A DNA stretch of 15,670 bases, taken from Methanobacteriota archaeon (GTDB lineage: Archaea > Hydrothermarchaeota > Hydrothermarchaeia > Hydrothermarchaeales > JAADFM01). Of the stretch, positions 2,379 through 15,670 are shown piece after piece. A program made the position numbers and the translations under genes. Location of the stretch: contig JAADFM010000166.1 of NCBI GenBank assembly GCA_013152845.1, positions 1-15,670 on the forward strand. The letters run 5' to 3'. The stretch's first letter is position 1. Every line of letters begins with the position of its first letter. Under the pieces are notes generated by a model. That model was not told where the DNA came from. It made no database searches and saw only the letters and a list, made by a program, of their open reading frames with translations.

Positions 2379-2397
2379 TTTTTTACTCATTAATGAT

Positions 2398-4188
2398 ATG
2401 CGCCTCCTGAGTCTCCTCATTTGTATCCTCCTGGCCCTGCCTCCGGTCGCGGCCGCGGGGTCCAGCTGCACCTTCTGCCACTCCAACCGGACACTCATGG
2501 ATGAGCTGGGCTTCCCCGGGTTCTACTTCACCGACGAAGAGGTCTGGAACCAGTCGAAGATGCTCAGGACCGGGGTGGGAGGCCCGACATGCCAGGACTG
2601 CCACCTCGGCGACCCCGGGAACTGCACGGCCGGGGGGGCCCACCTGGGGATGCCGCGGCCCATCGCGGTTTCCCTGGAAGGCTTCGGTCCGGCAGACAGG
2701 TACGAGCACCTCCCCAACCTGACCCCGCAGAAGGGGCGCTACCCCCTCAACATGCTGCCAGGAGACTTCAGCCTCAAGACCGTCCTCTACCACGAGCGCA
2801 ACCCCACAAATTACGCCCCCAACAGCACCCTCATCGAGGCCACCTGCGGCAAGTGCCACAGGGAGCAGGTGGAAGACTTCCTAAAAAGCCCCATGGGAAA
2901 CGCCACCGCCCAGTCCTCATATCCGAGCTTCACGGACCCGCCGGGTCCCCACAACTGCGGCTACTGGCGGGTGAACACCGAGAAGATCAGGGCGGAACTC
3001 GCCGTGAATTATTCCGACAAGCAGGCCCAGGTTGTTGACCGGGTCTGCCAGCAGTGCCACACCGGCTGCCTGGACTGCCACTACCAGCCCTTCCTGGACA
3101 AGGGGCGCCACTACTTCTCCAGGACGGTTCCCACCGAATCCTGCGAGAGCGGCGGCGGCAGGGGCATCTGCCACGCAGGGGCCGAGGACTTCCGCCGGGG
3201 GGCGGGGTACAACCGGGACCTGACCTCCCTGCCGGAGCTGCCCCGGGACGCCCATGCCGCGGCGAACATGACCTGCACCGACTGCCACCAAAGGGACGGC
3301 CACCTCTTCAGGAGGGAGGTCAAAAACTGCGGCCAGTGCCACCGGGAGGCCGTGGAAGGGATGGAGGAGAGCGTCCACCGCAACCTCTCCTGCGAGGCCT
3401 GCCACATCCAGACCCTCGGGGGCTACCAGATGACCATCTGGGGGCCGGGGGAGTACTACGGGGTGGTCTCCCCCCTGGTGAAGAACAACTACTACGGCGT
3501 CCTCTCGGAGCCCATCCTCATCAGGGACCAGGACGGGATATGGATACCAGTCAAGGCCCTGCCCCAGGCCGTCCTCAATATCAGGGGTGAGATGTCCCCC
3601 ACCGGGATAATGTTCCGCAACCTCCCGGGGGTCCACAACAGGTCCAGGGACGCTTATGCCGTGGTCGGGACCTTCAAGGACCTGCCCAAAAACAACAACG
3701 CCGTGCTGTGGGTCCACATGGACAAGGCGTCCCATGCCCTGGGCCCCGCCCGCAGCTGCCCGGACTGCCACACAACCGGCATCCAGCAGGCGGCCTCCTC
3801 CTGGATAGCCTACGGGGAGCACGTCTATCCCCCCCTCAACAGGTCCTTCACCGGGAGGTACCGGGTGGTGGGCAACGCCACCGGGCTCTACATCACCGAC
3901 ATCCAGACCACCTCCCCAATCTCCATCAAGGACCTGGGCCATGCCTCTGACTTCCTGCCCTGGGCCTTCGGGTTCAGCTGGACGGTCCGGGGCGATTTCT
4001 CTCTTCCCGCAAAAGACGAAGACGCATGCAGGGCGGACCGGAACTGCACCTCATGCCACGGCCCGGGCCACGCCACCGTAAACCCCGCCTACCTCAGGCA
4101 GCGCCCGGCCCTGGAACGGATATTCCTGGGTGCCCTCCTGGCCCTGCTGGTGGCCCTGTACTTCCTCCTCGGAGGCCGGGAGAGATGA
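2398..4188 (+). CDS. Exported decaheme c-type cytochrome with C-terminal membrane anchor
   Basis: 596 residues. A signal peptide (1-20, ending PPVAAA) precedes ten canonical CXXCH heme sites at Cys24, 65, 150, 217, 224, 293, 311, 332, 454 and 550. An eleventh, unusual C-x8-CH occurs at Cys249/Cys258-His259. Sites 217 and 224 are only seven residues apart, and a 117-residue heme-free stretch (337-453) may form a separate beta domain or a catalytic or docking region. A membrane helix at ~575-591 followed by GGRER anchors the C terminus. The sequence also holds eleven N-x-S/T sequons. Rieske and cytochrome b genes follow directly, with an ATGA overlap to the Rieske gene. Inference: it accepts electrons from the Rieske/cytochrome b module and passes them to an external or soluble acceptor. 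It could instead be an enzyme of the multiheme reductase type; no CXXCK active-site motif is visible. Confidence 0.9.
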   Translation: MRLLSLLICILLALPPVAAAGSSCTFCHSNRTLMDELGFPGFYFTDEEVWNQSKMLRTGVGGPTCQDCHLGDPGNCTAGGAHLGMPRPIAVSLEGFGPADRYEHLPNLTPQKGRYPLNMLPGDFSLKTVLYHERNPTNYAPNSTLIEATCGKCHREQVEDFLKSPMGNATAQSSYPSFTDPPGPHNCGYWRVNTEKIRAELAVNYSDKQAQVVDRVCQQCHTGCLDCHYQPFLDKGRHYFSRTVPTESCESGGGRGICHAGAEDFRRGAGYNRDLTSLPELPRDAHAAANMTCTDCHQRDGHLFRREVKNCGQCHREAVEGMEESVHRNLSCEACHIQTLGGYQMTIWGPGEYYGVVSPLVKNNYYGVLSEPILIRDQDGIWIPVKALPQAVLNIRGEMSPTGIMFRNLPGVHNRSRDAYAVVGTFKDLPKNNNAVLWVHMDKASHALGPARSCPDCHTTGIQQAASSWIAYGEHVYPPLNRSFTGRYRVVGNATGLYITDIQTTSPISIKDLGHASDFLPWAFGFSWTVRGDFSLPAKDEDACRADRNCTSCHGPGHATVNPAYLRQRPALERIFLGALLALLVALYFLLGGRER

Positions 4189-4628
4189 GGGTCTCGAGGA
4201 GGGCGGTTCTCGGGGCCGTGGCAAGACTCCTTGCAGGTGTGGGGCTGCTGGGCCTCGCCCTCTCCGGCTATTCCCTGAAGGCAGGGGCACCCGGAAGGGT
4301 CAGCAGCTCCGGGACCTCCGGGGAGGTCATGGTCATAAAACTCGATGACCTCCCGGACCCCGGGACGGTGAAGTTCACCGCAGGTGGGGTCCCGGGAATC
4401 CTCGTGAGGTTCAACGGGCAGCTGAAGGCCTTCACCGCCACCTGTACCCACATGGGCTGCCCGGTCAGCGGCAAGAAGCTGGCCACCGAGGGGCTGCTGG
4501 TCTGCCCGTGCCACGGCTCCACCTACGACCCCCTCACAGGGAAACGCCTCTCGGGCCCGGCCCCCAGGCCCCTCCGTGAGATGGCCGTCCAGGTCCGGGA
4601 AGGTAACATCTACGCCAGTGCGGTATAG
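4185..4628 (+). CDS. Rieske [2Fe-2S] protein with Tat signal
   Basis: 147 residues. The N terminus has a twin-arginine signal (SRRAVLG at 4-10) and a hydrophobic segment (~11-30) that probably stays as the membrane anchor. The Rieske fold follows, with cluster ligands in CTHMGC (Cys87, His89; Cys92 is the disulfide partner) and CPCHGS (Cys107, His110; Cys109 is the partner), then the Pro loop GPAPRPL. In the family this subunit takes the first electron from quinol at the outer face and hands it to a c-type cytochrome. ATG 4185 overlaps the stop of the decaheme gene (ATGA), and GGAGG at 4171-4175 is well placed. Cytochrome b follows 15 bp downstream. All cluster residues are present, so the protein should be functional. 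Confidence 0.92.
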   Translation: MRVSRRAVLGAVARLLAGVGLLGLALSGYSLKAGAPGRVSSSGTSGEVMVIKLDDLPDPGTVKFTAGGVPGILVRFNGQLKAFTATCTHMGCPVSGKKLATEGLLVCPCHGSTYDPLTGKRLSGPAPRPLREMAVQVREGNIYASAV

Positions 4629-4643
4629 GAGGTCTTTTGAGGA

Positions 4644-5567
4644 ATGGCGCTTTTCAGCTGGGAACCCGGGAGGTTGAAAAACCCCCTCTACTGGCTCAGT
4701 GCCGTCTCCGCCACCTGCCTCATCGTCCTCACCCTGACCGGGGCCGTCCTGGCCCTCTGGTACGAGCCCGCCCCTGAGCGGGCCTACGGGAGCATGGTCT
4801 ACATCCAGAGGTACGTCCACTTCGGGGACCTCCTCCTGGCCCTCCACCACTGGGCCACCCACCTCCTCCTGGTCTCCATCATCCTGCACCTCCTCAGGGT
4901 CTTCTACATGGGCACCTACAGGGGGAGGATGGGGACCGCCTGGGTTACCAGCGCACTCTTCCTGGTGGTGGCCGTCCTCTTCGTGTTCTCGGGCTACCTC
5001 CTGCGGTGGGACGAGCTGGGCTACTGGTCCGTGCGGGTGACGGCCTCCATCGTGGGCTACACGCCCCTTGTGGGCCGGGGGCTTGAGAACTTCATCCTGG
5101 GCGGGGGTGATATCACCTCCAGGACCCTGGCCAGGTTCTACCTGTGGCACATCGGCATCCTGCCCCTGGCCGCCCTCCTCCTCCTGGGCTACCACTACTA
5201 CCTGATAAACAAGAGGAAGATATACTGGGCCGAGGTGGGGGTGGGGTTCATCGTCCTGGGGTTCCTGGTGATGTACTCGGTCCTGCAACCCTTCGCCCTG
5301 GGGCCCGAACCCTCGCCGGAACTCCAGACCACCCTGAAGCCCATCTGGCTCTTCCTCTGGCTATACTCGATAGAACGCTCCCTGCCGCCGGGGCTGAACT
5401 TTTTGAACATCCTCATCCTCCTGGCCCTGCTAGCGTTTGTTACCTTCCTCCCCTACCTGGACAGGGGCGATGACCCGAGATGGAGGCTGAGGGTCGCCGT
5501 CCCCCTCCTTGCGGTACTGCTCCTGCTCTCCCTTGTCGGCTACCTCTGGGATGCACCGCTGAAATAG
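4644..5567 (+). CDS. Cytochrome b of a bc/b6f-like quinol-oxidising complex
   Basis: 307 residues with about eight hydrophobic helices, so the b6-like and subunit IV-like parts are fused but short. Helix B has the heme ligand pair His68-x13-His82 and helix D has His169-x14-His184; the x14 spacing in helix D is the b6 type. The family sequence after helix C is recognisable (SGYLLRWDELGYWSVRV then PLVGRGLENFILGG). The usual quinol-site PEWY is altered to PIWL (residues 233-236), so the glutamate is missing. A Shine-Dalgarno AGGAGGT precedes the ATG. With the Rieske protein and decaheme cytochrome this should form a membrane complex moving electrons from quinol to c hemes. The altered PEWY motif leaves open whether it works as a full Q-cycle enzyme. 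Confidence 0.9.
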   Translation: MALFSWEPGRLKNPLYWLSAVSATCLIVLTLTGAVLALWYEPAPERAYGSMVYIQRYVHFGDLLLALHHWATHLLLVSIILHLLRVFYMGTYRGRMGTAWVTSALFLVVAVLFVFSGYLLRWDELGYWSVRVTASIVGYTPLVGRGLENFILGGGDITSRTLARFYLWHIGILPLAALLLLGYHYYLINKRKIYWAEVGVGFIVLGFLVMYSVLQPFALGPEPSPELQTTLKPIWLFLWLYSIERSLPPGLNFLNILILLALLAFVTFLPYLDRGDDPRWRLRVAVPLLAVLLLLSLVGYLWDAPLK

Positions 5568-5701: not shown

Positions 5702-5875
5702 CTACCACCAGGATATCGCTTTCTCGCTTTCGAAGATGGCCTCCAGGAGGCCAGGGTAGTCAGGGTCCCCTTCGTAGAGCCTTACCACCTTGACCTCGTG
5801 CTCTGCCTTGTGGGCCTCAATTATCCTCTCCACGGCAGGACAGGGTTCGGACCGCAATATCTCCAGTATCTTCAT
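5702..5875 (-). CDS. 57-residue DsrH/TusB-like small protein, copy 1
   Basis: Small acidic protein starting MKILEILRSEP and ending ISWW. It is the last gene of the seven-gene sulfur operon and follows the Cys-free DsrE-like gene by 9 bp. A GTG at 5884 is in frame, but the paralogue at 13673 starts at the equivalent ATG, so ATG 5875 is preferred; GGTGG lies just before it. The two copies agree at roughly two thirds of positions, including the start, HKAEH, KVV, LYEG and the C-terminal SWW. Position in the triad, a KILEIL-type first strand and a terminal Trp recall DsrH/TusB, the third subunit of DsrEFH, but at about 60% of its usual length. That assignment is an inference. Cys12 is absent in copy 2 and so is not a conserved carrier. 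Confidence 0.7.
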   Translation of the reverse strand: MKILEILRSEPCPAVERIIEAHKAEHEVKVVRLYEGDPDYPGLLEAIFESEKAISWW

Positions 5876-5884
5876 CTCCACCAC

Positions 5885-6175
5885 CTAGAAGGGCACGATG
5901 AAGTCTGCCTCCAGGAGCCTCTGGGGCAGGTCCTCATCCGAGATGTACTCTATGTAGTCCGCGGCGTTCTCCTCGTTGTTGGAATACACCCTGCCACCGG
6001 CGTCCACTATCCATTCCAGGTTCTCGTCGATGTAAGGGTTCCTCTGCAGCACCACATCCAGCACGAAAACATGGACCTCGTGGCCGGCCAGGAGCATCCC
6101 GAGACTTGAGCGGGAGAACTCGCTCTGGCGGAACCGGCCCTCGTCCCTGAGCAGAAAGGCGATCTTGCGCTCCAT
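5885..6175 (-). CDS. DsrE-superfamily protein without cysteine (DsrF-like), copy 1
   Basis: 96 residues. It begins KIAFLLRDEG, a typical first strand of the DsrE/DsrF fold, and continues SSLGMLLAGHEVHVFVLDV, the helix-strand pattern of the family. It contains no cysteine, so it cannot itself carry persulfide and is more likely a structural partner of the Cys-bearing neighbour, as DsrF is to DsrE. Its ATG follows the stop of that neighbour with no gap, which implies coupled translation. The copy at 13856-14155 matches over the whole length (SRS/ALG..L.GHE, ENLEWI, SNN, EYIS/M and the end IVPF/Y). Naming it DsrF is an inference from position. Confidence 0.78.
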   Translation of the reverse strand: MERKIAFLLRDEGRFRQSEFSRSSLGMLLAGHEVHVFVLDVVLQRNPYIDENLEWIVDAGGRVYSNNEENAADYIEYISDEDLPQRLLEADFIVPF

Positions 6176-6481
6176 CTAGAACACCACGTACCTGTCCACC
6201 TGGGATGCCATCCGGGCGTTCCAGTCCTGGTTGGAGTGCTTCACGCCCTCGAGCTCGGGTTTGAAGGTCTTGTCCAGGTCGAATCCCTTGTAGGTCTTGT
6301 CGCACATGGCCACTTCTGCCCCTGCATCCAGGAGTTCCTGGAATTCCGGGTCCTGGGTCAGGAACACGGAATCTGCCGTGAAAAATATCCTGACCCCGAT
6401 ACCCTTGTCCCGGGCCGCCTTGGTGAGGCCCACCACGTGGTTCAGATGCCTATCGGTTGAAACCAGGATACCCAGTTCCAT
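6176..6481 (-). CDS. DsrE-family sulfur-transfer protein with conserved cysteine, copy 1
   Basis: 101 residues of DsrE/TusD-like sequence: first strand MELGILVSTD, then HVVGLTKAARDKGIGVRIFFTADSV, and AEVAMCDKTYKG with Cys60 placed after the central strand, where DsrE/TusD have their persulfide-carrying cysteine. The copy at 14157 keeps the same CDKTY motif (Cys62). Family role: takes sulfane sulfur from TusA or a related donor and passes it on within a DsrEFH-type complex in the cytoplasm. The start ATG 6481 has GGAGGGA close upstream and lies one base after the YeeE stop. The C terminus VDRYVVF is identical in both copies. Confidence 0.82.
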   Translation of the reverse strand: MELGILVSTDRHLNHVVGLTKAARDKGIGVRIFFTADSVFLTQDPEFQELLDAGAEVAMCDKTYKGFDLDKTFKPELEGVKHSNQDWNARMASQVDRYVVF

Positions 6482-6482
6482 C

Positions 6483-7889
6483 CTATCCCTCCAGGTACTT
6501 CCTGAAGGTGCGCCCGGCAGCCCAGGTCATCACCCCGGCCCACAGGAGCATGAACAGCACCATCACCACCACTGCCGGGATGTAGCCTCCCAGCATCTTG
6601 GGCAGATAGACGCTGTAGATGTTGCCGGTCCCGTAGGGGTTGATGACGGTGTTGAAGAGCTCGGAGTTCCTCAAGGGGAACAGCCAGGCCGTGCTGGTGA
6701 TGAGGACCAGAAGGGCTATCCATATCTTGACCTGGCCCTCGGCCGTCCTCCACAGGCTGTCGCTGACACAGGCGCCGTTGATGGCCATTCCGATCCCGAA
6801 GAAGATGCCGCCCAGGATTATCCCGAATCCCGCCGGGCTCACGCCGAATATCTCGCCATAGGCGATGTTGGGGTTCACCGTGGCGATGAGCTTGAAGGGC
6901 AGGAACCCTATTATCAGCAGGATGTAGAGCAGGGTCATGGCCCTGGTCATCTCCGCAAACCCGCTGAGGAAGGGCTCCCTGTAGGCATGGGCAAAACACA
7001 TCCCTCCACGCTCCATCGCCACACCGGTGAGCATGCATGCGAAGATCAGGACTGCCGCATGGGGGAATCCCATGGACGCCAAGTTCCACAGACCGAATCC
7101 GACCAGCCCCAGGACGATGAGTGCCACATAGGGCTGATACCTCAGTCCCCAGTGCTCGCCACCGTCGAGGTTCTCGGGGTTCTTAGGCCAGATGGTCCTG
7201 GTCTTTTCGAAATGGCACAGAGGCCTGTACTTGGCCCCGTCAAAGGGCGCCTGCTGCTCGAACCGCTTCTGTTCAAGATATCTCAACAAGACTGCCCCGA
7301 AATAGGAGCCGATGACCATGCCGACCACCATCAGCATCCCCTGGAAGGACAGGGTCCCGATGTTGGTGGTGCTGACGATGGGGCAGCCGTACATGAAGAC
7401 CGCACCTATCCCCATCAGCAGTCCGCCGGCCACCGCGAAGATGTACTCTATCCTGTCCCTGGGCACCTTCACGGCGAACTCCTTGGAGAGCAGGGCTGCC
7501 ACCAGGCCTCCCAGGAGGATACCCAGCATGGTATTCACGGTGGGCTCCAGGAGGGGGTTGGGCCACATCCTGAAGAAGTTCGTCTCACCGGTGAACCAGT
7601 GGTACCCCTCAAAACCAGGGAAGCTGGGGACACCCATGAAATCATCTATAATCCCGCCGAGTTCCCGCAGGCCCACGAAGGTGCCGATAGGCCTCGCCAT
7701 GTCGTAGGGGTTGCCGCCAGTGGCAATATCCGAGAGGGCCCAGATGCCTATCCCATAGGCCAGTATGTTCGAGACCGCCATGAAGATGGCGGCTATCCAG
7801 TAGGGCCATTTGTCCACCATGTAGGTCCTCCACCAGCCCCTGAGGTAGGCCTTAAGACCCACGTCCATCTCAAATCCAGTATTCGTCAT
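6483..7889 (-). CDS. YeeE/YedE (TsuA-type) sulfur-compound transporter, fused two-half form
   Basis: 468 residues, a polytopic membrane protein made of two YeeE/YedE halves. Conserved cysteines lie in the family motifs: MYGCPIVSTTNIG (Cys169) in the first half, RGGMCFAHAYR (Cys298) and NGACVSDSLWR (Cys374) in the second. Bacterial YeeE/TsuA imports thiosulfate through such cysteines. A cytoplasmic or external loop (~205-255) joins the halves. ATG 7889 is chosen because GGAGGT lies at the right distance; the in-frame GTG at 7907 is upstream of that ribosome site. The neighbours are TusA, DsrE and an exported rhodanese, the set expected for import and relay of sulfane sulfur. The substrate (thiosulfate, polysulfide or another) cannot be told from sequence. 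Confidence 0.9.
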   Translation of the reverse strand: MTNTGFEMDVGLKAYLRGWWRTYMVDKWPYWIAAIFMAVSNILAYGIGIWALSDIATGGNPYDMARPIGTFVGLRELGGIIDDFMGVPSFPGFEGYHWFTGETNFFRMWPNPLLEPTVNTMLGILLGGLVAALLSKEFAVKVPRDRIEYIFAVAGGLLMGIGAVFMYGCPIVSTTNIGTLSFQGMLMVVGMVIGSYFGAVLLRYLEQKRFEQQAPFDGAKYRPLCHFEKTRTIWPKNPENLDGGEHWGLRYQPYVALIVLGLVGFGLWNLASMGFPHAAVLIFACMLTGVAMERGGMCFAHAYREPFLSGFAEMTRAMTLLYILLIIGFLPFKLIATVNPNIAYGEIFGVSPAGFGIILGGIFFGIGMAINGACVSDSLWRTAEGQVKIWIALLVLITSTAWLFPLRNSELFNTVINPYGTGNIYSVYLPKMLGGYIPAVVVMVLFMLLWAGVMTWAAGRTFRKYLEG

Positions 7890-7890
7890 T

Positions 7891-8481
7891 TCAGCAACCT
7901 CCTGCACCGGGGGGCAGTCCGATAAAGGGTATCACCCCTTGGCCGATGAGATTCCCCGAGTCATCCTTGACGACGATGACAAGCTTCTTGGAACCGACCG
8001 GACCGCCCGGCTTCAGGTTGAAGACGGCACCGCCCTTGATGGACCCGTCCTCTATCTTTATGTCCTTCAAGGAGATTCCCATCCCCTCTATCTCGGGGTC
8101 TTGGATTTCCACGGTGACTTCCCCGGAATAATCAGGGGGCAGTCCGCTGAACTCAAAGGGACAGGTCACACTCCGGCCCTGGGCAACCTGGGCCACGGTT
8201 ATGCCTTCCCTCACCGGGGTCCAGCTGAAGGTCAGCTCCTGGGATATGGCACCCCCGGACTCACCCGGTGTTTCACCGGCCACGCCGGTTTCCCCGGTTG
8301 GGCTACCCGTCGTCTGTGTCCCCCCAGCCTTTGGTAGTTCAACCTGCTGCGGTTGGACCGCCTGGCCCAGCTCCACCAGGGGCTGGTTCAGGGGTGGCAC
8401 GGTAAAGACGACAAAGCTTATCAGGGCCATCAACACCGCAACTTCCGGTCTGGGAAAAGACCATCCGCCTTCGCCTGACAT
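7891..8481 (-). CDS. Membrane-anchored beta-sandwich protein ending in Gly-Gly-Cys; possible SoxY-like carrier
   Basis: 196 residues. One N-terminal membrane helix (~13-31) is followed by a Pro/Thr/Gly-rich linker (~40-80) and a beta-rich domain of about 110 residues with Ig-like sequence (EVTVEIQDPEIEG, KKLVIVVKDDSGNLIGQGVI). The chain ends LPPGAGGC, so the last residue is a cysteine on a flexible Gly/Pro arm; Cys107 is the only other cysteine. The family is not recognised. Known SoxY proteins are extracytoplasmic and carry sulfur on a Cys in a C-terminal GGCGG arm, and this gene sits between TusA and YeeE downstream of an exported rhodanese, so a carrier role is an attractive inference. Caution: GGA GGT is also the Shine-Dalgarno of yeeE. 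ATG 8481 (after AGGTGA) is preferred over GTG 8490. Confidence 0.75.
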   Translation of the reverse strand: MSGEGGWSFPRPEVAVLMALISFVVFTVPPLNQPLVELGQAVQPQQVELPKAGGTQTTGSPTGETGVAGETPGESGGAISQELTFSWTPVREGITVAQVAQGRSVTCPFEFSGLPPDYSGEVTVEIQDPEIEGMGISLKDIKIEDGSIKGGAVFNLKPGGPVGSKKLVIVVKDDSGNLIGQGVIPFIGLPPGAGGC

Positions 8482-8486
8482 CAGCT

Positions 8487-8729
8487 TCACCTTTTAATCC
8501 AGAAGTAGTAGTTTCCCTCCCGCTGTTCCATCTTAGCCAGTTCACAGCCCATCCTCTCACAGAGGTCCCGGATGTTGCCCTTGGCACTGCTGTCCGATGC
8601 CTTTATGAGCAGCACCTGCCCCTTTTTGAGGTTCTTCAGGGCGCTCATGGTCCTGAGCATGGGCTGCGGGCAGACTAGGCCCACGCAATCCACTTCTATG
8701 TCGACCTTGATTCCTTCTTCGTCTGACAT
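8487..8729 (-). CDS. tusA: TusA-family sulfur carrier protein, copy 1
   Basis: 80 residues with the hallmark DCVGLVCPQPMLRT: Cys20 of the CPxP motif carries persulfide sulfur at the start of helix 1. The rest follows the two-layer TusA fold (KKGQVLLIKASDSSAKGNIRDLCERMGCEL). Cys15, 57 and 62 are additional. ATG 8729 is chosen because AAGGAGGATG sits about eight bases upstream; longer upstream readings have no family match. It lies between the rhodanese and YeeE genes, matching the known functional pairing of YeeE with TusA-type proteins, and should pass sulfur to the DsrE-like protein downstream. It differs clearly from the second TusA at 11184. Confidence 0.92.
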   Translation of the reverse strand: MSDEEGIKVDIEVDCVGLVCPQPMLRTMSALKNLKKGQVLLIKASDSSAKGNIRDLCERMGCELAKMEQREGNYYFWIKR

Positions 8730-8761
8730 CCTTTTCATCCTCCTTGAAAGTTCTAGAAGGG

Positions 8762-8790
8762 TAGGGGGTCGGAGGTGAGAGAACCCCCTA
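8762..8790 (-). repeat. Hairpin at the rhodanese stop codon, between rhodanese and tusA
   Basis: Arms TAGGGGGT (8762-8769) and ACCCCCTA (8783-8790) are perfect inverse complements around a 13-base loop. One arm includes the TAG stop of the rhodanese gene. No T-run follows, so it is more likely an RNA-processing or stability element, or a partial attenuator, than a terminator. Confidence 0.4.
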
Positions 8791-10053
8791 ACTCCTCCTA
8801 GCCACGGCCACAACTATGGCCAAGATAGCCAGGACGTAGGCACCGAAGACCTGGCCCCGGCCTGCCTTTTCTGCGGCAACCGTATTGGCTGCCTCCAGGG
8901 CATTCTGGGCGGCCGACAGGGATTCCTCAATCTGAGGAGATATCTCCTGTGTAGCGGCCTGGATTGCCTCTCCTTTGGTTTCCTCTGCAACCTTTTTGGC
9001 TTCCTCAACGCCGGCCTTGGCTTCGTCAACGCCTGCCTTAGCCTCCTCGACGCCGACCAGGGCCTGGGTGGCAAGGGACTGGACGTCCTTTATCTTCTTG
9101 ACCTCCTTGTTCAGGGCAGCAAAGTTATACCACTGCTCGTTCTCGATGGGCGTGTCCTGCCTGCTGCCCCAGACCCTCCAGGAATCGTCGTAGATCTTGA
9201 TCCTGTCGGCATCATATCCCAGAAGCCTCAGGACAAAATAGGTGTAACTGGTCCTGGTCGCAGTCTGGCAGTGGAGTACGAGGTCCTTGTCCTTGGGCAC
9301 ATCGGCATAGTTTTTAAGGAGGTCGTCGACCGGTAACAGCTGCCAGGTCGTTCTATTGTAAAGAGTATGCTTTGTGTCGATGTTGTGCGCCCCTGGTATA
9401 TGGCCGCACCTTATTGCCTTGCAGTCCTTGCCGCTGTATTCCTTCGGGGTCCTGACATCGATGACATAGACACTCGGGCTATTGTAGTTCTTGATGAGCC
9501 AGTCGGTACTTACTATTCTGTCGCTGTGGGTATTCAGGTTGAAGGTCGTCGGCGGGCGGGTCTCGACACCTGTTTTGACCTCGTTTCCTTCCCTGACCCA
9601 TTCATCGATACCGCCTGGATAGAACTTCACGTTCTTTGCCCCTAGGTATTCGAGAATCCAGTAGGCTACCGTGAAATGGTAGGGCTTCTTCTCCAGGGCA
9701 CCATAGACAATGATCTCATTGGTATCGCTTATCCCGGCATCACCCAGCAGTGCCGCATCCTCGGCAGTAACGGTATAGACCCTGGCCGTGCTGTCCCTCA
9801 GGACCTTCCAGGCCTTCCCACCCAGATTTACAGCCCCGGGAATGTGACCTTCCTCATAGTCCGCGGCATCCCTTACATCCAAAAGCACGGTATTCGGGTC
9901 ATTTAGCTTGGACTTCACGTAATCTGTCGTGGCAAGAACACTCGGGTTCGGGTATTCCGCCGCCTGCACGGTGGGAGCGAGGGCCAAAACCAAAATCACT
10001 GCCACCAGCAGTGGTCCTCCCTTCCCCCAACTAGCCGTTTTTCCTTTTTCCAT
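8788..10053 (-). CDS. Exported tandem-rhodanese protein with coiled coil and C-terminal membrane anchor
   Basis: 421 residues. A signal peptide (~12-32, ending VQAA) is followed by two rhodanese domains. Domain 1 (~38-160; LLDVRDAADYEEGHIPGAVNL) has Gly118 where the catalytic Cys belongs, so it is inactive. Domain 2 (~180-305; VIDVRTPKEYSG, GHIPGAHN) has Cys262 in LHCQTATRTSY and should be active. This matches the layout of thiosulfate/3-mercaptopyruvate sulfurtransferases with a dead first domain. Residues ~313-397 form an Ala/Glu/Lys coiled coil with repeated AKAGVxEAK units, then a membrane helix (~401-417) and RRS. The enzyme is thus held outside the membrane on a stalk. It heads the operon with TusA and YeeE, GGGGTGA precedes the ATG, and a strong TATA box lies upstream. 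Inference: prepares sulfane sulfur for uptake. Confidence 0.9.
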   Translation of the reverse strand: MEKGKTASWGKGGPLLVAVILVLALAPTVQAAEYPNPSVLATTDYVKSKLNDPNTVLLDVRDAADYEEGHIPGAVNLGGKAWKVLRDSTARVYTVTAEDAALLGDAGISDTNEIIVYGALEKKPYHFTVAYWILEYLGAKNVKFYPGGIDEWVREGNEVKTGVETRPPTTFNLNTHSDRIVSTDWLIKNYNSPSVYVIDVRTPKEYSGKDCKAIRCGHIPGAHNIDTKHTLYNRTTWQLLPVDDLLKNYADVPKDKDLVLHCQTATRTSYTYFVLRLLGYDADRIKIYDDSWRVWGSRQDTPIENEQWYNFAALNKEVKKIKDVQSLATQALVGVEEAKAGVDEAKAGVEEAKKVAEETKGEAIQAATQEISPQIEESLSAAQNALEAANTVAAEKAGRGQVFGAYVLAILAIVVAVARRS

Positions 10054-10102
10054 GATTATTCACCCCTTGCATTTTCATTACAGGGTTAATATTATTCAAA
10101 AG

Positions 10103-10131
10103 TATATATATTTTTCGAAAGCGATTTCGAA
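10103..10131 (-). promoter_or_regulatory. Promoter and putative operator of the rhodanese-TusA-YeeE-Dsr operon
   Basis: On the minus strand CTTTCGAAAAA runs straight into TATATATAC, giving a BRE-like element plus TATA box. The ATG at 10053 is about 50 bases downstream, leaving a leader of about 27 bases with a Shine-Dalgarno. Positions 10114-10131 form a dyad TTCGAAA-GCGA-TTTCGAA. The 10111-10131 block matches 12870-12890, upstream of the LysR-type gene, at 17 of 21 positions. Confidence 0.65.
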
Positions 10132-10153
10132 TTTTCCGAATAGTTGCGGAAAA
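10132..10153. repeat. Inverted repeat TTTTCCG-N8-CGGAAAA
   Basis: A perfect 7-bp dyad directly beside the TTCGAAA dyad at 10114-10131 and upstream of the rhodanese promoter. It is a candidate second regulator site, or part of the 3' region of the yeeE half gene ending at 10183. Confidence 0.4.
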
Positions 10154-10164
10154 TAATATCACTC

Positions 10165-10181
10165 TTTCGCTTTGAGCGAAA
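10165..10181. repeat. Inverted repeat TTTCGC-N5-GCGAAA after the split yeeE operon
   Basis: A perfect 6-bp dyad one base beyond the stop codon of the yeeE second half. On the minus strand it is followed within about 15 bases by ATTATTTTCC. It may be a terminator hairpin, a further operator-like site of the same TTTCG type as its neighbours, or both. Confidence 0.4.
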
Positions 10182-10182
10182 T

Positions 10183-10710
10183 CTACCTGCCCAAGACCCG
10201 GTAGAGGCCCAGGTACACCATGGAGAGGAGGGCCACCAGGTACCAGGGCGAGATGCCGAGGGTCTGGGGGAGGGTCACATTACCCAGGGATGTGGGGTTT
10301 ATCAGGTTGTCCAAAAAGAACCCGTAGACCTCTGCGAAGGTTCCAATCCCGATGAGCATGCCGGAGAGGGCTATCACGGCATTGGTGTTCCCCTCGCCTA
10401 TCCTGAAGAGGGTCCCGGAGGCGCACCCCCCAGCAAGGACCATCCCGACCCCGAATATCAGTCCCCCGAGGACGTTGTGGAGGCCCGCCTCCTTGACATA
10501 GGGGAAGTTCCCGGGGGGTATGACCCCGGTCGCACCTCCCAGATAGAAGAGGACCATGGTGGAAAAGAGGAGGAAAAGGAAACCCCGGGTGAGGTAAAAA
10601 TACCTGTTCACAAAGATGCTCCTGAAGGCGCATGTGAGGCAGAACTGGCCCCGCTGGAGGACCAAACCCACAAGGACCCCGAAGACGAGGCCCGCAAGCT
10701 CTTCCATCAT
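10183..10710 (-). CDS. YeeE/YedE transporter, second half as a separate protein (set 2)
   Basis: 175 residues, hydrophobic throughout. It carries the second-half family motifs RGQFCLTCAFR (Cys24, Cys27) and AGGCASGTLFRIGEG (Cys96). ATG 10710 overlaps the stop of the first-half gene by four bases (ATGA), so the two halves are almost surely made together and assemble as a heterodimer equivalent to the fused protein at 6483-7889. The extra Cys27, three residues after the conserved one, is not in the other sets. This is the last gene of the LysR/V4R/TusA/YeeE operon; no Dsr-type genes follow here. Confidence 0.88.
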   Translation of the reverse strand: MMEELAGLVFGVLVGLVLQRGQFCLTCAFRSIFVNRYFYLTRGFLFLLFSTMVLFYLGGATGVIPPGNFPYVKEAGLHNVLGGLIFGVGMVLAGGCASGTLFRIGEGNTNAVIALSGMLIGIGTFAEVYGFFLDNLINPTSLGNVTLPQTLGISPWYLVALLSMVYLGLYRVLGR

Positions 10711-11177
10711 AATACCCTCAGCAGAACCTTTGTCCCGATATATGAGCCCACAAATATCGAGATAAAGGCCAGAAAGCTCGACAGGGCCAGCATGGGGACC
10801 CCCGAGATTATATGCCCTATGTTACACCCAAAGGCGAGTCTTGCGCCGAATCCCATCAGCAGTCCTCCCACGAATACCTGGAGGTACCGCTCCTTTTTCC
10901 GCGGGACCCTTATCTTGAAGTCCCTGCTCAACACCGCCCCTATGAAGGCCCCGAGGACGATACCCAAATCCAGGAACACCCTCCAGTCGAGGGAGGGGGG
11001 ATACCTCTGGAAATACAGGTTTCCCTGGACGTGCCCCGGAAAGAACAGGTTTTCAAGATAGGCGGTAAAATGGGCCTCCCCGGTGGTAATGCTCCAGGGT
11101 TTTCCCAGGGAGGCGTATATGAAAAGGTTCAGACAGGCCAAAAGGACAGCGGACTGCCATGGAAGTAGGTACCTCAT
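10707..11177 (-). CDS. YeeE/YedE transporter, first half as a separate protein (set 2)
   Basis: 156 residues with membrane helices and the first-half motif FGCNIGHIISG (Cys118), the classical YeeE GCNIGH form. Preceding family features include LGAFIGAVLSRDFKIRVPRKKERYLQVFVGGLLMGFGARLAFGC. The matching second half overlaps it downstream. Cys118 corresponds to the first conserved cysteine of bacterial YeeE/TsuA. ATG 11177 lies 6 bp after the TusA stop with only a weak ribosome site, so translation is probably coupled. Together with the adjacent TusA this is a complete minimal sulfur importer. Confidence 0.88.
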   Translation of the reverse strand: MRYLLPWQSAVLLACLNLFIYASLGKPWSITTGEAHFTAYLENLFFPGHVQGNLYFQRYPPSLDWRVFLDLGIVLGAFIGAVLSRDFKIRVPRKKERYLQVFVGGLLMGFGARLAFGCNIGHIISGVPMLALSSFLAFISIFVGSYIGTKVLLRVL

Positions 11178-11183
11178 ATCCGC

Positions 11184-11396
11184 TCACACATGGATGATGA
11201 TTTCGAAGTCTGGGCCGTTCTCGTGCATCTCATATTTTTTCTTCTGGGCCTCCATCTCGAAGGGTATGGATTTTTTTGCCGGGGGGTGGTCGGCCAGGAC
11301 CTTCAGGGTGTCGCCTTTCTTCATGGTCTTGAGCTTCCTCACCGTCTCCACCAGGGGCACAGGGCATATCTCGCCTCTAACATCCAGGGTCTCCAC
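11184..11396 (-). CDS. tusA: TusA-family sulfur carrier protein, copy 2
   Basis: 70 residues: [21 protein letters not shown] gives the CPxP motif with Cys11, the only cysteine in the protein, followed by the fold sequence [27 protein letters not shown]. It starts at GTG 11396, immediately after the V4R stop codon with no spacer; AAGGTGG overlaps the end of that gene as the ribosome site. It is paired with the split YeeE downstream. It resembles classical short TusA proteins more closely than copy 1, which is longer and has extra cysteines; the two probably serve different transporters. Confidence 0.92.
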
Positions 11397-11928: not shown

Positions 11929-12835
11929 TCATACGTTATATTGGCTTACCAGCTCCCGGCCATTTTCCACAAGGTACTCATAGAAATTCTTGATTTCCGG
12001 ATTTTTAATCCCTCTCTTATCGCAGATGACATAGATGGGCCTTCTCTCGGAGAAATCCTCTATCTCCCTTATCCTGAGAAGCCCGCCCTTCTCGTATTTT
12101 TCCGCAAGGATATAGGAGGTAATGGCGGTACCGAGGCCTGCCGAAACCCCGTATATCTGGGAGAAGACATCGTCCACAGAGCACTCTATGGCCAGGTCGG
12201 TATCGCATTTTTCCCTGGAGATGGCATCCTCCAGCTGGTCTGTTAGGCCGTAGGAATGGGAGAGGGTGACCATGGGGTATTCCAGGACATCCCTTATGTA
12301 TATCTTGTCCTTCGATTCCAGCTCATGGCCGGGCGGCAGCAGAAGTACCTGCCTGTCCATTCCAATCTCCTCAAAGACGTATTTCTCGCTGTCGGGGGTC
12401 GAGGAGATGTATCCCGCCAGTATCAGATTCACGTCGTTTCTGTTCAGGAGGTCAAAGCACCTCCTCTCCCCGCCGAGCAGGGTTGTTATGACGACACCGG
12501 GGTTCTTCTCCTTATATCCCATCTGGAGCTGGGCAATCAGGGGGACCCCCACGCACCCGATGGCGACCTTGATCTCCTTTGTCGTTATGCTCCTTATGAA
12601 CTTCCTGGTCCTTTCGATGTGCTCTTCAAGCTCCTCTATGGCCTCATAGGCGATCTTGCCCTCCGCTGACAGCTCCACCCCCTTGGCCTTTCTGTCCAGC
12701 AATATCGAAAAACTTCTCCACCGAGGATATCTGACTGCTGATGGTACTCACGGACACATCCAGGGTCCTGGCCGCTTTGAGCAGGCTGCCCTCCTTCACC
12801 ACGGTCTTGAGGGTGGCCAGATAGTCGATTCTCAT
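11929..12835 (-). pseudogene. LysR-type regulator gene with a frameshift between DNA-binding and effector domains
   Basis: The N-terminal frame from ATG 12835 encodes a LysR winged helix (LATLKTVVKEGSLLKAARTLDVSVSTISSQISSVEKFFDI). The match then jumps near 12700-12712 to another frame giving LLDRKAKGVELSAEGK and the full effector-binding domain ending SQYNV. Read together the pieces form one LysR protein of about 302 residues, the normal length; alone, neither half is a usual protein. Restoring the family spacing needs about two extra bases near the join, and a TTTTT run lies at 12708-12712. It could be a true disabling mutation, programmed frameshifting or a sequencing error; the rest of the gene shows no decay. 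It heads the V4R/TusA/YeeE operon and has an operator-like site beside its own TATA box, as LysR autoregulators often do. Confidence 0.8.
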
Positions 12836-12861
12836 CTCTCTAATACTAAGCACCCTCTTGA

Positions 12862-12890: not shown

Positions 12891-12949
12891 AAAGTAGAAA
12901 CCAATCGGCGGAAGGAATATGAGTGATGACCCGGTTTTTATTAACCGAA

Positions 12950-13474
12950 ATGGATATCGCCGTGGTCCCCCTGGGGGGGGTCGGGAAAAATGAGATAGAG
13001 GGAATAGCCCGTTTCTTGGAGGGAAAGTTGGGCAGGAAGGTCGGAATTAGAGAAGGAATCCTCCCAAGTGGGAGGGCATTCTCACAAAAAAGGGGCCAGT
13101 TTGATGGCGAAATCCTTTTGGCCCAGTTGTCGGGTTATAAAAGAGAGGGGGAGGCGCTCTTGGCCATCACCGATGAGGACCTCTTTGTCCCAGGCCTCAA
13201 CTTCATCTTCGGGATATCCAAAATTGGCGGGGGCATCGCCATACTCTCCCTGCGGCGGTTAAGGGAGGCAGCGGGCAGACCCCTTTCCCGCCAGCGCTAT
13301 GAGGAAAGGGTCCGAAAGGAGGTCCTCCACGAGGTGGGGCATGCGGCAGGACTCACCCATTGTAAAGATGATTGCGTCATGAAATTCTCCAACAGCATCT
13401 ATGAGGTGGACGAGAAAAACGAGGATATGTGCGACAGGCACAAATCGCAGTTTCTCCAGTATCTCAACCCGTGA
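12950..13474 (+). CDS. amzA: Archaemetzincin-type zinc metalloprotease
   Basis: 174 residues. The metzincin site is clear: HEVGHAAGLTHC (His127, Glu128, His131, His137 and Cys138) with a following Met-turn at VMKFSNS (Met144). Archaemetzincins also bind a second, structural zinc through cysteines after the active site. Here Cys138, Cys142 and Cys161 are present, but the last position reads CDRH (His164) rather than the usual CXXC, and only three residues separate Cys138 and Cys142. The family usually begins at the first strand, MDIAVVPLGG, hence ATG 12950; ATG 12926 would add eight residues and has AAGGA upstream. The protein lacks a signal peptide, so it is cytoplasmic. Natural substrates of the family are poorly known, and its link to the sulfur genes may be only positional. 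Confidence 0.9.
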   Translation: MDIAVVPLGGVGKNEIEGIARFLEGKLGRKVGIREGILPSGRAFSQKRGQFDGEILLAQLSGYKREGEALLAITDEDLFVPGLNFIFGISKIGGGIAILSLRRLREAAGRPLSRQRYEERVRKEVLHEVGHAAGLTHCKDDCVMKFSNSIYEVDEKNEDMCDRHKSQFLQYLNP

Positions 13475-13672: not shown

Positions 13673-13843
13673 TTACCACCAGGAAACGACCTTGTCGGCC
13701 TCGAAGATGTCGTCCACCAGGCTGTCGTAGTCGGCGCCCTCGTAGAGCTTTACGACCTTGACGTCGTGCTCGGCCTTGTGGACCTCTATCATCTTCTGGA
13801 CGGTCTCGTCGGGTTCGGATTTGAGAATCTCGAGTATCTTCAT
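13673..13843 (-). CDS. 56-residue DsrH/TusB-like small protein, copy 2
   Basis: Starts MKILEILKSEPDETVQ and ends DKVVSWW; no cysteine. It is a clear paralogue of the protein at 5702-5875 and occupies the same place, directly after the Cys-free DsrE-like gene (12 bp gap). ATG 13843 is preceded by GAGGTG. Conservation of the whole length between two operons, with synonymous base differences throughout, shows it is a real gene despite its size. The comparison with DsrH/TusB rests on gene order, the first strand and the terminal Trp, and is tentative. Confidence 0.72.
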   Translation of the reverse strand: MKILEILKSEPDETVQKMIEVHKAEHDVKVVKLYEGADYDSLVDDIFEADKVVSWW

Positions 13844-13855
13844 CACTGCTCACCT

Positions 13856-14155
13856 CTAGTAGGGCACGATGACATCGTACTCCAGCATCTTCTTGGCCAT
13901 GTCCTCGACGGACATGTACTCGATGAACTCCGACTTGTCCACGTTGGCCTGGTTGTTGGAGACCACTATCCCGTCGGAGTCGATTATCCACTCCAGGTTC
14001 TCTTCCACCTCGCCCCGCTCCACGTCGTAGTCCACGTCCAGGATCATCAGGCTGGGCTCATGGCCTTTCAGCATGGTCCCGAGGGCACTCCTGGAAGCCT
14101 CCTCCTGGACGAAACCGTCGGAGGATTTTGACAAGAATACAACTGTCTTGGGCAT
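13856..14155 (-). CDS. DsrE-superfamily protein without cysteine (DsrF-like), copy 2
   Basis: 99 residues beginning KTVVFLSKSSDGF, with the family helix ASRSALGTMLKGHEPSLMILDV and the end YDVIVPY. Like copy 1 it has no cysteine, so the lack of a sulfur-carrying residue is conserved and points to a partner role. ATG 14155 lies one base after the stop of the Cys-bearing DsrE gene. Compared with copy 1 it is three residues longer, in the acidic loop after the third strand (DYDVERGEVEENLEWI). Confidence 0.8.
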   Translation of the reverse strand: MPKTVVFLSKSSDGFVQEEASRSALGTMLKGHEPSLMILDVDYDVERGEVEENLEWIIDSDGIVVSNNQANVDKSEFIEYMSVEDMAKKMLEYDVIVPY

Positions 14156-14156
14156 C

Positions 14157-14468
14157 TTAAAACACCACGTACCTGTCTACTTCTTCGATTATGTCCGCAT
14201 TGTCGTCCTGGCTGCCGTGCTCCATGCCCTCCACCTTGTCGCCGTGCTCCTTGTTCACACCAAGGCCCTGGTAGGTCTTGTCGCACAGGCTCACCTTGGC
14301 CCCGGCCTTTACAAGCTCCTGGGCCTTGGGGTCGGGACAGAGTTTGACTCCAACCCCGGTGAAGAAGACGTGCACCTCCTTACCCTTGTTTATGGCCGCC
14401 TTGGTCAGGCCTACTACGTGGTCCAGATGTTTATCTGAACTCACCATTATACCCAGTTTGTCTGCCAT
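14157..14468 (-). CDS. DsrE-family sulfur-transfer protein with conserved cysteine, copy 2
   Basis: 103 residues: KLGIMVSSDKHLDHVVGLTK, then VHVFFTGVGVKLC and AKVSLCDKTYQG with Cys62 in the conserved CDKTY position shared with copy 1; Cys44 is extra. The end VDRYVVF is identical to copy 1. AGGTGG precedes ATG 14468. It lies just after the second-half YeeE gene of set 3, so in both Dsr-bearing operons the DsrE protein follows the transporter directly, in line with sulfur transfer from the imported substrate. No TusA gene is visible in this operon, although one might lie upstream beyond the window. Confidence 0.83.
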   Translation of the reverse strand: MADKLGIMVSSDKHLDHVVGLTKAAINKGKEVHVFFTGVGVKLCPDPKAQELVKAGAKVSLCDKTYQGLGVNKEHGDKVEGMEHGSQDDNADIIEEVDRYVVF

Positions 14469-14483
14469 TTAACCACCTCTCTT

Positions 14484-15119
14484 TCAATCCATCTTCTTTT
14501 CGACATATATATATGCCGCAAACAGAATCGCTGCCTGTATTATCCCGACTATCATACCGTCAACAGGCAATACGCTGTGGATGGGCTGTCCACCGGTGCC
14601 GGGATAGGCCGCCTCTGCGTACCTGCCGAGCCATACCCAGTTGGAATCGAAGCCGATGACATTGGACTTGGCCCCCAGGGCCAGGTAGTCGCCCAGGTAC
14701 TTGAAGCTCTCGGCCCCTATGGCGATGCCCACGAACATGGAGACCGCTGTGAGAACGTAGTTGAGACTGCCCTCTCCAATCCTGTAGAAGGTGCTCACCA
14801 CGCAGCCCCCGGCGATGGCCATGCCTATGCCGAAGAGGATTCCTCCTCCTATCTGGTACCAGCCCGCCGGGAAGGGGGTGGCCTTGACCCCGCCGATGCC
14901 CTGGGACAGGAAGATGGAATAGAAGAAGGTTATGGTCCCCAGGATCAGGAACAGGTACTTCAGGTTCCGGGTCACCTGGAAGAGGATGAAATCCCTTATG
15001 GCCCCGGTGACACACAGCCTCGACCTCTGGGCCAGGTAGCCCAAGAGGAAACCGAAGACGGCCCCGGCGATTATCTCAAGGGAGCCGGCCTTGGGAACGA
15101 ATATTACAAGCGCGCTCAT
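14484..15119 (-). CDS. YeeE/YedE transporter, second half as a separate protein (set 3)
   Basis: 211 residues, hydrophobic, with second-half motifs QRSRLCVTGAIRDF (Cys36) and AGGCVVSTFYRIGEGS (Cys106). It differs from set 2 by a longer segment before the last membrane helix (about residues 135-185, YLALGAKSNVIGFDSNWVWLGRYAEAAYP), a likely external loop comparable in place to the NTVINPYGTGNIYSVYLPK loop of the fused protein. The gene starts at ATG 15119 after GGTGAAGGAG, 12 bp beyond the first-half stop. It is followed by the DsrE gene after 15 bp. Confidence 0.88.
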   Translation of the reverse strand: MSALVIFVPKAGSLEIIAGAVFGFLLGYLAQRSRLCVTGAIRDFILFQVTRNLKYLFLILGTITFFYSIFLSQGIGGVKATPFPAGWYQIGGGILFGIGMAIAGGCVVSTFYRIGEGSLNYVLTAVSMFVGIAIGAESFKYLGDYLALGAKSNVIGFDSNWVWLGRYAEAAYPGTGGQPIHSVLPVDGMIVGIIQAAILFAAYIYVEKKMD

Positions 15120-15131
15120 CTCTCCTTCACC

Positions 15132-15670
15132 TCAGAGCCCCATCTTCCTCTCATAGTACTTGGCTCCTATATAGGTGCCAATGATTATCCCTATCACTGC
15201 CAGGTATCCTCCCAGGGCCAGCTGGGATACCGCCCCCATGAAGACACCCACGTTGCACTGGGTCATATAGGCGATGCCGATGCCCATGAGAACCCCGCCC
15301 ACGATGGAGTCCAGCACCGCGCTTTTGTCGAACTTGATTCCAAACTCACCTGATATCAGGGCTGCTGCGAAACCGCCTATCACGAAGCAAAGGAGTGATA
15401 CAGCCACCTTCTGGACCGATGTCACCTTGCCCCAGAAGGGGTGGCTCTTCGCATAGTCCGAGAGGTATATTACCGCATTGCCCCCCTGTATCTCCTTGAC
15501 ATCACCGCCCATGACCGCATTGAGGGCCACCTCGTCGATATACCTGAGGCCTCCACCGAAGGCCCAGGCCACCCCGTAGCCCTGGTTGAGGCCTGCTGGA
15601 CTCTTGAACGGAAAGACCATCAGTATGAGCAGGATGCTTACCATGACCGCCCCCCATTTGTATTCAATCT
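15132..15670 (-). CDS. YeeE/YedE transporter, first half (set 3), start beyond the window
   Basis: The reading frame is open to the right edge, so the true start may lie outside. From the internal Met at 15644 there are 170 residues, and the codons before it (IEYKWGAV) resemble the polar lead-in to a first membrane helix, suggesting that this Met is not the start. The family motif is TQCNVGVFMG (Cys130 counted from that Met), a variant of GCNIG with Gln before the Cys. The external loop (~15-75) is long, as in the fused transporter. It pairs with the second half at 14484-15119. Confidence 0.85.
   Translation of the reverse strand, partial: IEYKWGAVMVSILLILMVFPFKSPAGLNQGYGVAWAFGGGLRYIDEVALNAVMGGDVKEIQGGNAVIYLSDYAKSHPFWGKVTSVQKVAVSLLCFVIGGFAAALISGEFGIKFDKSAVLDSIVGGVLMGIGIAYMTQCNVGVFMGAVSQLALGGYLAVIGIIIGTYIGAKYYERKMGL

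Follow-up and report, generated by a model that had tools for sequence, protein, structure and literature searches.

The passage of sulfane sulfur over the cytoplasmic membrane has been described as poorly understood (PMC11582611). The closest described gene set is the YTD cluster, which comprises YeeE, TusA, DsrE and two small proteins and is now read as DsrEFH type II (PMC13293266, PMC13047784, PMC12998232, PMC9751629, PMC8780430); it is reported that such clusters may hold two to three conserved hypothetical proteins, chp1-3 (PMC12998232). TusA of a cable bacterium is described as handing sulfur to one DsrE cysteine of DsrEFH type II, and DsrEFH as handing it to DsrC (PMC13293266). The single active DsrE cysteine of this type is given as Cys67 in E. 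aureum, and DsrEFH type II is reported to co-occur with DsrAB, 73.9% of it of the reductive type (PMC13293266). What hands sulfur to the YeeE of these clusters outside the cell appears unsettled in the published YTD work. The word 'rhodanese' does not occur in one of the reports (PMC13293266), and periplasmic rhodaneses are handled apart from YTD in the sections available of another (PMC13047784). Here, we analyzed a stretch of 15,670 nucleotides (the window), which is the whole of contig C166 (JAADFM010000166.1) in a 62.7% complete genome assigned to the Hydrothermarchaeota (GCA_013152845.1), a lineage from which no DsrEFH is reported in the available part of PMC6759336. The window carries a seven-gene operon in which a YTD-like gene set is joined to an exported rhodanese and to a protein ending in Gly-Gly-Cys (the GGC protein), and which may encode an inward sulfur relay.

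Exported partners of YeeE-like transporters have also been discussed elsewhere. In Hyphomicrobium denitrificans, the passage of sulfur from SoxY to the YeeE-like SoxT1 has been called conceivable (PMC11582611). In Desulfurivibrio dismutans, exported rhodanese lipoproteins and a porin are encoded beside YeeE, and a relay to TusA and DsrC has been proposed (PMC12142623). The YeeE/YeeD pair of E. coli is known to take up thiosulfate (PMC11073785).

The operon and its GGC protein

The operon lies on the minus strand at 5702-10053 in the order rhodanese, TusA, GGC protein, YeeE, DsrE, DsrF-like and DsrH-like, with intergenic gaps of 0 to 58 nucleotides that vary with the choice of start codon. These genes, with their coordinates, order and spacing, had been put forward in an earlier reading of the DNA (the original prediction), and open reading frame positions bore them out. 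The cysteines named there were also right, namely Cys262 of the rhodanese, Cys20 of TusA (counted from the MSDEE start) and the terminal Cys of the 196-residue protein. The operon genes and an associated metalloprotease gene are as follows.

8788..10053, minus strand: exported tandem rhodanese (Pfam PF00581 in two stretches, 124.8 bits; PDB 1uar, 2.6e-36; hydropathy; active loop)
8487..8738 (alternative start 8729), minus strand: TusA (Pfam PF01206, 77.7 bits)
7891..8490 (GTG start) or from 8481 (ATG start, 196 residues), minus strand: GGC protein (no Pfam or NCBIfam family; AlphaFold2; C-terminal Cys)
6483..7907 (alternative start 7889), minus strand: YeeE1 (Pfam PF04143, Sulf_transp, 122.9 bits; tree; alignment with 6leo)
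6176..6481, minus strand: DsrE, type II-like, with conserved Cys60 (invariant Cys in alignment; Pfam 22.3 bits against a cut-off of 22.7)
5885..6175, minus strand: DsrF-like, no Cys (identity of 45% with the window's second copy and of 65% with a same-order genome)
5702..5884 (alternative start 5875), minus strand: DsrH-like, 57-60 residues (BLASTP and custom hidden Markov model; homologues adjoin DsrE/DsrF in relatives)
12923..13474, plus strand: archaemetzincin-family metalloprotease with HEVGHAAGLTHC (Pfam PF07998, 88.7 bits; NCBIfam NF033823, 144.3 against a cut-off of 145)

The GGC protein of the window consists of an N-terminal membrane peptide of about 40 residues fused to a predicted immunoglobulin-like (Ig-like) domain and ends in LPPGAGGC; hydropathy placed its one hydrophobic segment at residues 16-34, and no Pfam or NCBIfam family matched it. 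Nitrospirota encode membrane peptide and GGC protein in two separate genes lying side by side; in the window, its close relatives and P0049, the two are a single protein. The first protein search recovered four close GGC clusters (the window's own included), each with the C-terminus LPPGAGGC, and an alignment search added two more distant relatives, one of them from a Nitrospirae genome. A wide alignment search, in which 7996 candidates were scored, yielded 73 family members at E values up to 1e-5. All five members whose listed name included an organism (P0006 among them) were from Nitrospirota.

Cysteine was the last residue in 77 of the 78 collected proteins (the window's own included), whose C-terminal triplets were GGC in 55, CSC in 21 and VGC in one; the remaining protein (P0056), the sole one without a terminal Cys, may be frameshifted. 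The terminal Cys was kept across differing tails (GGC, ECLC, ECMC and KCSC), and was the sole cysteine in 48 of the 56 GGC- or VGC-tailed proteins. An AlphaFold2 model based on 50 sequences gave an Ig-like sandwich and, after it, a short tail; the block predicted local distance difference test score (pLDDT) was 93-97 over residues 71-170 of P0001 and 81 in the tail. An internal cysteine of the window protein (in VTCP) is not conserved; it was rejected as a second carrier site, being absent from most aligned Nitrospirota copies. Homology to SoxY, whose C-terminal motif is GGCGG, was likewise rejected. Profile searches against the PDB and fold searches with two models gave generic Ig-like or chance matches, and SoxY was absent among the listed rows of both, although the two proteins may yet share a fold. 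When 50 members were compared with Pfam, 12 families gave matches with E values up to 1 and SoxY was not one of them, and no GGCGG-type arm was seen in the 78 proteins. Paralogues adjoin the GGC gene at several loci (L102 8832-10105, L099 8196-8669 and L101 3946-4449), with tails ECLC or ECMC and, in one case, AGGD. One collected protein of 95 residues (P0078) has a DsrH-like start and a GGC tail at its end, and may be a natural fusion, a deletion or an assembly chimera.

The transporter YeeE1 appears to belong to a dedicated subfamily. Its motifs (FMYGCPIVS, RGGMCFAHA and INGACVSDS) follow a pattern shared with the YeeE proteins of 465-470 residues from GGC arrays (GCPxxS, RG(G/S)xCFA and NGACVSDS), whereas other YeeE proteins usually show GCNxx, FCxxxA and GGCxxx. 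Its Cys304, Cys380 and Cys175 aligned with the three cysteines of 6leo, the two halves being swapped in order relative to TsuA. In a tree covering one half of the protein, YeeE1 and 13 GGC-linked Nitrospirota YeeE formed one clade (support 100/100), which a long stem separated from 16 control YeeE; L103, L104 and L113 were left out of it as duplicates, and L112, L166 and the upstream YeeE halves because the cutting motif was not found in them. The scores of YeeE1 against TsuA-type NCBIfam models (76.1 bits against a cut-off of 400 and 60.3 against 645) were, like those of all its four NCBIfam matches, far under cut-off.

The rhodanese has 421 residues, a signal-like N-terminus and hydrophobic segments at 14-32 and 400-418 by hydropathy, the latter being a C-terminal anchor. 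Its second domain has a CX4R loop, CQTATRT, at Cys262; the first domain has no CX4R. The TusA cysteine lies in CPQP and becomes Cys23 if counted from the MKRM start. DsrE has a single cysteine, Cys60, which corresponds to a Cys invariant in all ten aligned DsrE proteins and is a putative equivalent of Cys67 of E. aureum; the best PDB row for DsrE was 3pnx (E 0.26). No Pfam family matched the DsrF-like and DsrH-like proteins. The original prediction had taken these two as hand-over steps, a view that we abandon because the DsrF-like protein has no cysteine and the single one of the DsrH-like protein is missing from its paralogue. The genome also encodes DsrA and DsrB (459 and 464 bits, both over their cut-offs), and DsrC (157.7 bits, over cut-off, with two cysteines in its tail). 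AprA is encoded as well, as two pieces in different frames that score 628 and 236 bits, both short of the 641.75-bit cut-off. Thus, a sulfur relay in this organism would have a plausible end point.

Recurrence of the gene set and its setting in the contig

Linkage was counted in stretches fetched around GGC genes (test) or around DsrE (control), and contig ends truncate many of these stretches. When named genomes were scanned with the GGC alignment, one locus was obtained, in a groundwater Nitrospirae metagenome-assembled genome, with the order DsrE, DsrF, DsrH, exported rhodanese, GGC protein (ending PKGAGGC) and YeeE. Among 395 sampled Nitrospirota genomes, the GGC family was found in 22: 18 with a GGC tail, three with a KCSC tail only, and one (G477) with a weak N-terminal match only, which was discounted. 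Within the 18 GGC-tailed stretches, YeeE and an exported rhodanese-family gene were present in all 18 (the latter in 17 by custom hidden Markov model and in G297 by Pfam), TusA in 17 (it is lacking from the 5.2 kb contig of G297), the dedicated YeeE subfamily in 15, DsrEFH in 12, and the membrane peptide and the archaemetzincin in 14 each (in G584, the archaemetzincin is on the other strand, about 5 kb off). All seven families of the window occurred together in 11 of these genomes. It should be noted that G560 (L103) and G616 (L100) carry a letter-for-letter identical contig of 12,110 bases; the 18 genomes therefore represent 17 independent stretches, and 14/18 becomes 13/17. A nineteenth genome (G718) has an archaemetzincin, the membrane peptide, a GGC protein, a 467-residue YeeE, TusA and a lipoprotein rhodanese, with DsrEFH nearby. 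Of 394 genomes related to that of the Nitrospirae locus, surveyed in a second round, 23 were GGC-positive, 21 of them already known.

As controls, 20 stretches were hand-picked from the 160 DsrE-positive, GGC-negative Nitrospirota genomes (17 among the strongest matches with loci, and three weaker). YeeE was found in 17, TusA in 14 and an exported rhodanese in four, and none of the 20 had the dedicated YeeE, the membrane peptide or the archaemetzincin; the dedicated subfamily was thus absent from 17 of the 17 controls having YeeE. At the genome level, DsrE was present in 20 of the 21 GGC-family genomes (G477 left out) versus 160 of 374 others, a contrast inflated by relatedness; Fisher values, which take no account of kinship, are descriptive here. 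The gene combination is more than a chance finding, since it recurs in Nitrospirota in other gene orders. The original prediction had proposed looking for conserved co-occurrence of all seven genes in archaeal genomes, and would have been refuted by homologous genomes in which the rhodanese or GGC gene is never linked to YeeE. Such linkage was found, in Nitrospirota, where rhodanese, GGC protein and YeeE go together in every sampled GGC-tailed genome, but no linked GGC gene was found in same-order archaea. Eleven archaeal-side loci (seven of the same order, eight with DsrE) had no dedicated YeeE, membrane peptide or archaemetzincin. One of them (L047, from the same-order genome G007) has a GGC-like domain without Cys, its positions 1-229 encoding the C-terminal part at the contig edge.

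The rhodanese-family genes of the 18 stretches were of different kinds: seven have a CQTGSRS loop, ten are lipoproteins without CX4R, and one (G297) is single-domain. In nine of the ten clusters with a CX4R-less lipoprotein, this lipoprotein, too, has Cys as its last residue, preceded by a Gly-rich stretch (for example GGGGKTGC), so that a second terminal-cysteine protein is present in these arrays (L096, L097, L100, L102, L103, L106, L108, L111 and L112).

Among the loci compared, the best matches of the window's rhodanese (39%), TusA1 (45%) and GGC protein (39%) were all GGC-linked Nitrospirota copies. For YeeE1, identity reached 59% with Nitrospirota and 27% with the archaeal loci compared; for DsrE1, it was 68% with a same-order genome and 39-43% with Nitrospirota. 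By sequence identity, the operon is a mosaic in which YeeE is Nitrospirota-like and DsrEFH is like that of same-order archaea. The source genome is probably archaeal, as judged from its kinship with same-order genomes, from a GMP synthase subunit of 307 residues that stands alone, and from a ZPR1 homologue (TIGR00340, 178 bits); no match to archaeal SSU rRNA was found in this incomplete genome. The contig may have been mis-binned into it, but the matches of 49-76% between same-order genomes and the contig's DsrEFH and second YeeE speak against this.

The archaemetzincin is over its Pfam cut-off and 0.7 bit under that of NCBIfam NF033823. After HEVGHAAGLTHC, it has CX3CVM, followed by CDRH in place of the C-terminal CxxC. 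Copies of the family beside the GGC module include L090 6869-7387 and L099 7500-8096. It probably serves the module as an accessory; a role in trimming the GGC tail was considered, and most copies have no obvious signal peptide.

The window holds other features around the operon.

10102..10115, minus strand: TATA-like stretch 5' of the operon (sequence and short inverted repeats in 10050-10190)
10183-10710 and 10707-11177, minus strand: neighbouring ordinary YeeE in two half genes (Pfam PF04143)
11184-11396, minus strand: TusA3, beside the ordinary YeeE (Pfam PF01206)
13673..15644, minus strand: second YeeE (two halves)-DsrEFH cluster, a second copy in the contig

The TATA-like stretch would be a candidate promoter; several short inverted repeats surround it at 10098-10183, such as TTTCGCT/AGCGAAA and TTCGAA. 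The ordinary YeeE/TusA3 pair (10183-11396) parallels a second YeeE/TusA pair beside many Nitrospirota GGC clusters, and adjoins a LysR gene and a V4R-like protein; it could be a sensing arm or a second import arm. The LysR-type regulator (11929-12904) is apparently split in two frames, with an N-terminal reading frame at 12644-12904 and the substrate domain at 11929-12702. From the second YeeE-DsrEFH cluster (13673-15644) to the contig end, there is no GGC, rhodanese or TusA gene. On the plus strand, genes for a DsbD-like membrane protein, a multiheme cytochrome (cytochrome c7 match), a Rieske protein and a cytochrome b (1605-5567) adjoin the sulfur genes.

A proposed inward relay and its alternatives

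We propose, with a probability of roughly 0.58, that the operon encodes an inward sulfur relay running from the rhodanese through the GGC carrier, the dedicated YeeE, TusA and DsrE to DsrC and DsrAB. Outside the membrane, the anchored rhodanese would take sulfane sulfur onto Cys262 and load the terminal Cys of the GGC protein. The latter, held at the membrane by its N-terminal helix, would carry the sulfur on its flexible C-terminal tail, like SoxY yet independently of the Sox system, and would present it to the dedicated YeeE with its three channel cysteines. Inside, TusA would receive it on Cys20 and hand it to Cys60 of DsrE, with DsrF and DsrH as a scaffold, and from there it may pass to DsrC and DsrAB. 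Observed in favour of this relay are the anatomy of the proteins, the conserved terminal Cys, the three cysteines of YeeE and the one of DsrE, the recurrent linkage, the co-occurrence of the GGC protein with one YeeE subfamily, and the genes for DsrAB, DsrC and a two-piece AprA in the genome. We infer from these each transfer step, import as the direction, the substrate, and a role in catabolism instead of assimilation or sensing. The transmembrane relay of the original prediction remains the best reading, but the word 'complete' used there was too strong, as the loading of the carrier is a conjectured step and DsrF and DsrH have no conserved cysteine.

Several observations weigh against the relay. 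A CX4R loop is missing from the linked rhodanese-like lipoprotein of 10 of the 18 Nitrospirota genomes, although in nine of these ten the lipoprotein echoes the carrier by its own terminal Cys, and exported rhodaneses also occur in four of the 20 GGC-free control stretches. DsrEFH is absent from the fetched stretch in six of the 18. G297 pairs its single-domain rhodanese with an ordinary type of YeeE that two controls have as well, and in G467 and G620 only ordinary YeeE was seen. The nearest YeeE outside the clade is archaeal (L054; sister at 98/87 on a long branch) and has no GGC protein nearby in its contig, and the best NCBIfam match of YeeE1 is a selenium-linked YedE/FdhT model (89 bits against a cut-off of 350). 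One weak match to the GGC domain in a same-order genome (G007, E 2.8e-5) ends in PPGAS and a Nitrospirota paralogue in AGGD, both without Cys. The KCSC-tailed relatives (G427, G498, G602 and G720; loci L098, L109, L110 and L191) had no YeeE in their fetched stretch. Finally, the loading of the GGC tail with sulfur and its contact with YeeE are themselves proposals drawn from the proteins' sequences.

The alternative that survives best, although we regard it as unlikely, is that the operon is a known YTD/DsrEFH type II import cluster in which the GGC protein, instead of carrying sulfur, helps YeeE in redox reactions or assembly through a terminal-Cys disulfide or a dimer. YeeE, TusA and DsrEFH are described as sufficing in published clusters (PMC13293266, PMC13047784), all 20 control DsrE stretches were without a GGC match, and a DsbD-like gene lies in the same window. 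The tie of the GGC protein to one YeeE subfamily fits either reading equally. However, an extreme C-terminal Cys in 77 of 78 proteins, often the sole one, is easier to reconcile with a mobile carrier arm than with a redox pair.

It is improbable that the GGC-rhodanese-YeeE arm senses extracellular sulfur rather than supplying catabolism. Regulators do flank the arrays (the LysR and V4R-like genes in the window, and a histidine kinase with a sigma-54 response regulator in L090), and one of the two SoxT1 systems of Hyphomicrobium has been assigned to signalling (PMC11582611). In both the window and L090, however, the regulators adjoin the other, ordinary YeeE/TusA pair, and DsrEFH lies directly 3' of YeeE1 in the window. 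We give slightly less credit still to the idea that YeeE1 transports selenium, or takes thiosulfate directly as E. coli YeeE/YeeD does, with the exported proteins as accessory binders; its YedE/FdhT similarity would be in line with this, but lies, like its other NCBIfam matches, far under cut-off, and its linked genes, DsrEFH and an exported rhodanese, point to sulfane sulfur. A transferred gene island without a physical relay, to which the mosaic make-up of the operon might be ascribed, is very improbable, because the changed order, the anchor-carrier fusion and the joining of a foreign-kin membrane module to a native-type DsrEFH suggest selection for joint function.

Going beyond the relay itself, the GGC protein might found a new class of extracytoplasmic sulfur carriers that dock with their own YeeE and are kept up by the membrane peptide and the archaemetzincin, that is, a Sox-independent counterpart of SoxY in Nitrospirota and an archaeon. 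We advance this tentatively, at somewhat under even odds. If true, it would provide archaemetzincins with a physiological context; no paper pairing archaemetzincin with sulfur was found in our literature search. With a dedicated carrier of this kind, exported, bearing one conserved terminal Cys and linked to a single transporter subfamily, the outer hand-over step becomes testable.

Comparison with known systems

Compared by gene make-up, the window resembles YTD/DsrEFH type II in its YeeE, TusA, one-Cys DsrE, two small DsrF/DsrH-like genes and genomic DsrAB. It adds the exported tandem rhodanese, the GGC protein with its membrane peptide, and a different YeeE subfamily. With TsuA-TsuB (YeeE-YeeD; 6leo, 8j4c), it shares the three aligned cysteines and a TusA-like partner, and it differs in the swapped YeeE halves, the under-cut-off NCBIfam scores and the exported partners. 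The archaemetzincin family has the motif HEXXHXXGXXHCX4CXMX17CXXC as reported (PMC3427221); its HExxHxxGxxHC part and Pfam PF07998 are common to the family as described (PMC3427221, PMC4681839) and the window copy, which differs in the C-terminal CxxC.

The original prediction had held that known YeeE-TusA pairs lack exported partners, which overstates the case in view of SoxY-SoxT1 (PMC11582611) and of the rhodanese lipoproteins and porin beside YeeE (PMC12142623). The latter system, in Desulfurivibrio dismutans, is like the window in having periplasmic rhodaneses co-localized with YeeE; it differs in that no GGC-like carrier is named and no DsrEFH was found there, as far as the available text of that report goes. 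The SoxYZ and SoxT1A/B proteins of Hyphomicrobium denitrificans, with TusA, also offer an exported sulfur carrier that possibly feeds a YeeE-like transporter; two such transporters are present there as well, and a single-helix membrane protein of 56 residues is discussed with one of them (PMC11582611). No Sox family was among the matches of the 21 window proteins scanned with Pfam, the genome not having been searched for Sox. The GGC protein also differs from SoxY in that its Cys is the very last residue and is not part of a GGCGG motif.

The original prediction had further called the combination possibly undescribed. This does not apply to YeeE-TusA-DsrEFH, which is the published YTD make-up (PMC13293266, PMC13047784), but within the mostly open-access literature searched, where neither the GGC proteins nor their YeeE subfamily nor a link to archaemetzincins is described, it holds for these three and for the membrane peptide, chp3 of PMC12998232 not having been compared. 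The YeeE-TusA-DsrEFH half and the general idea of a relay are already in print, and the exported GGC module is the new part.

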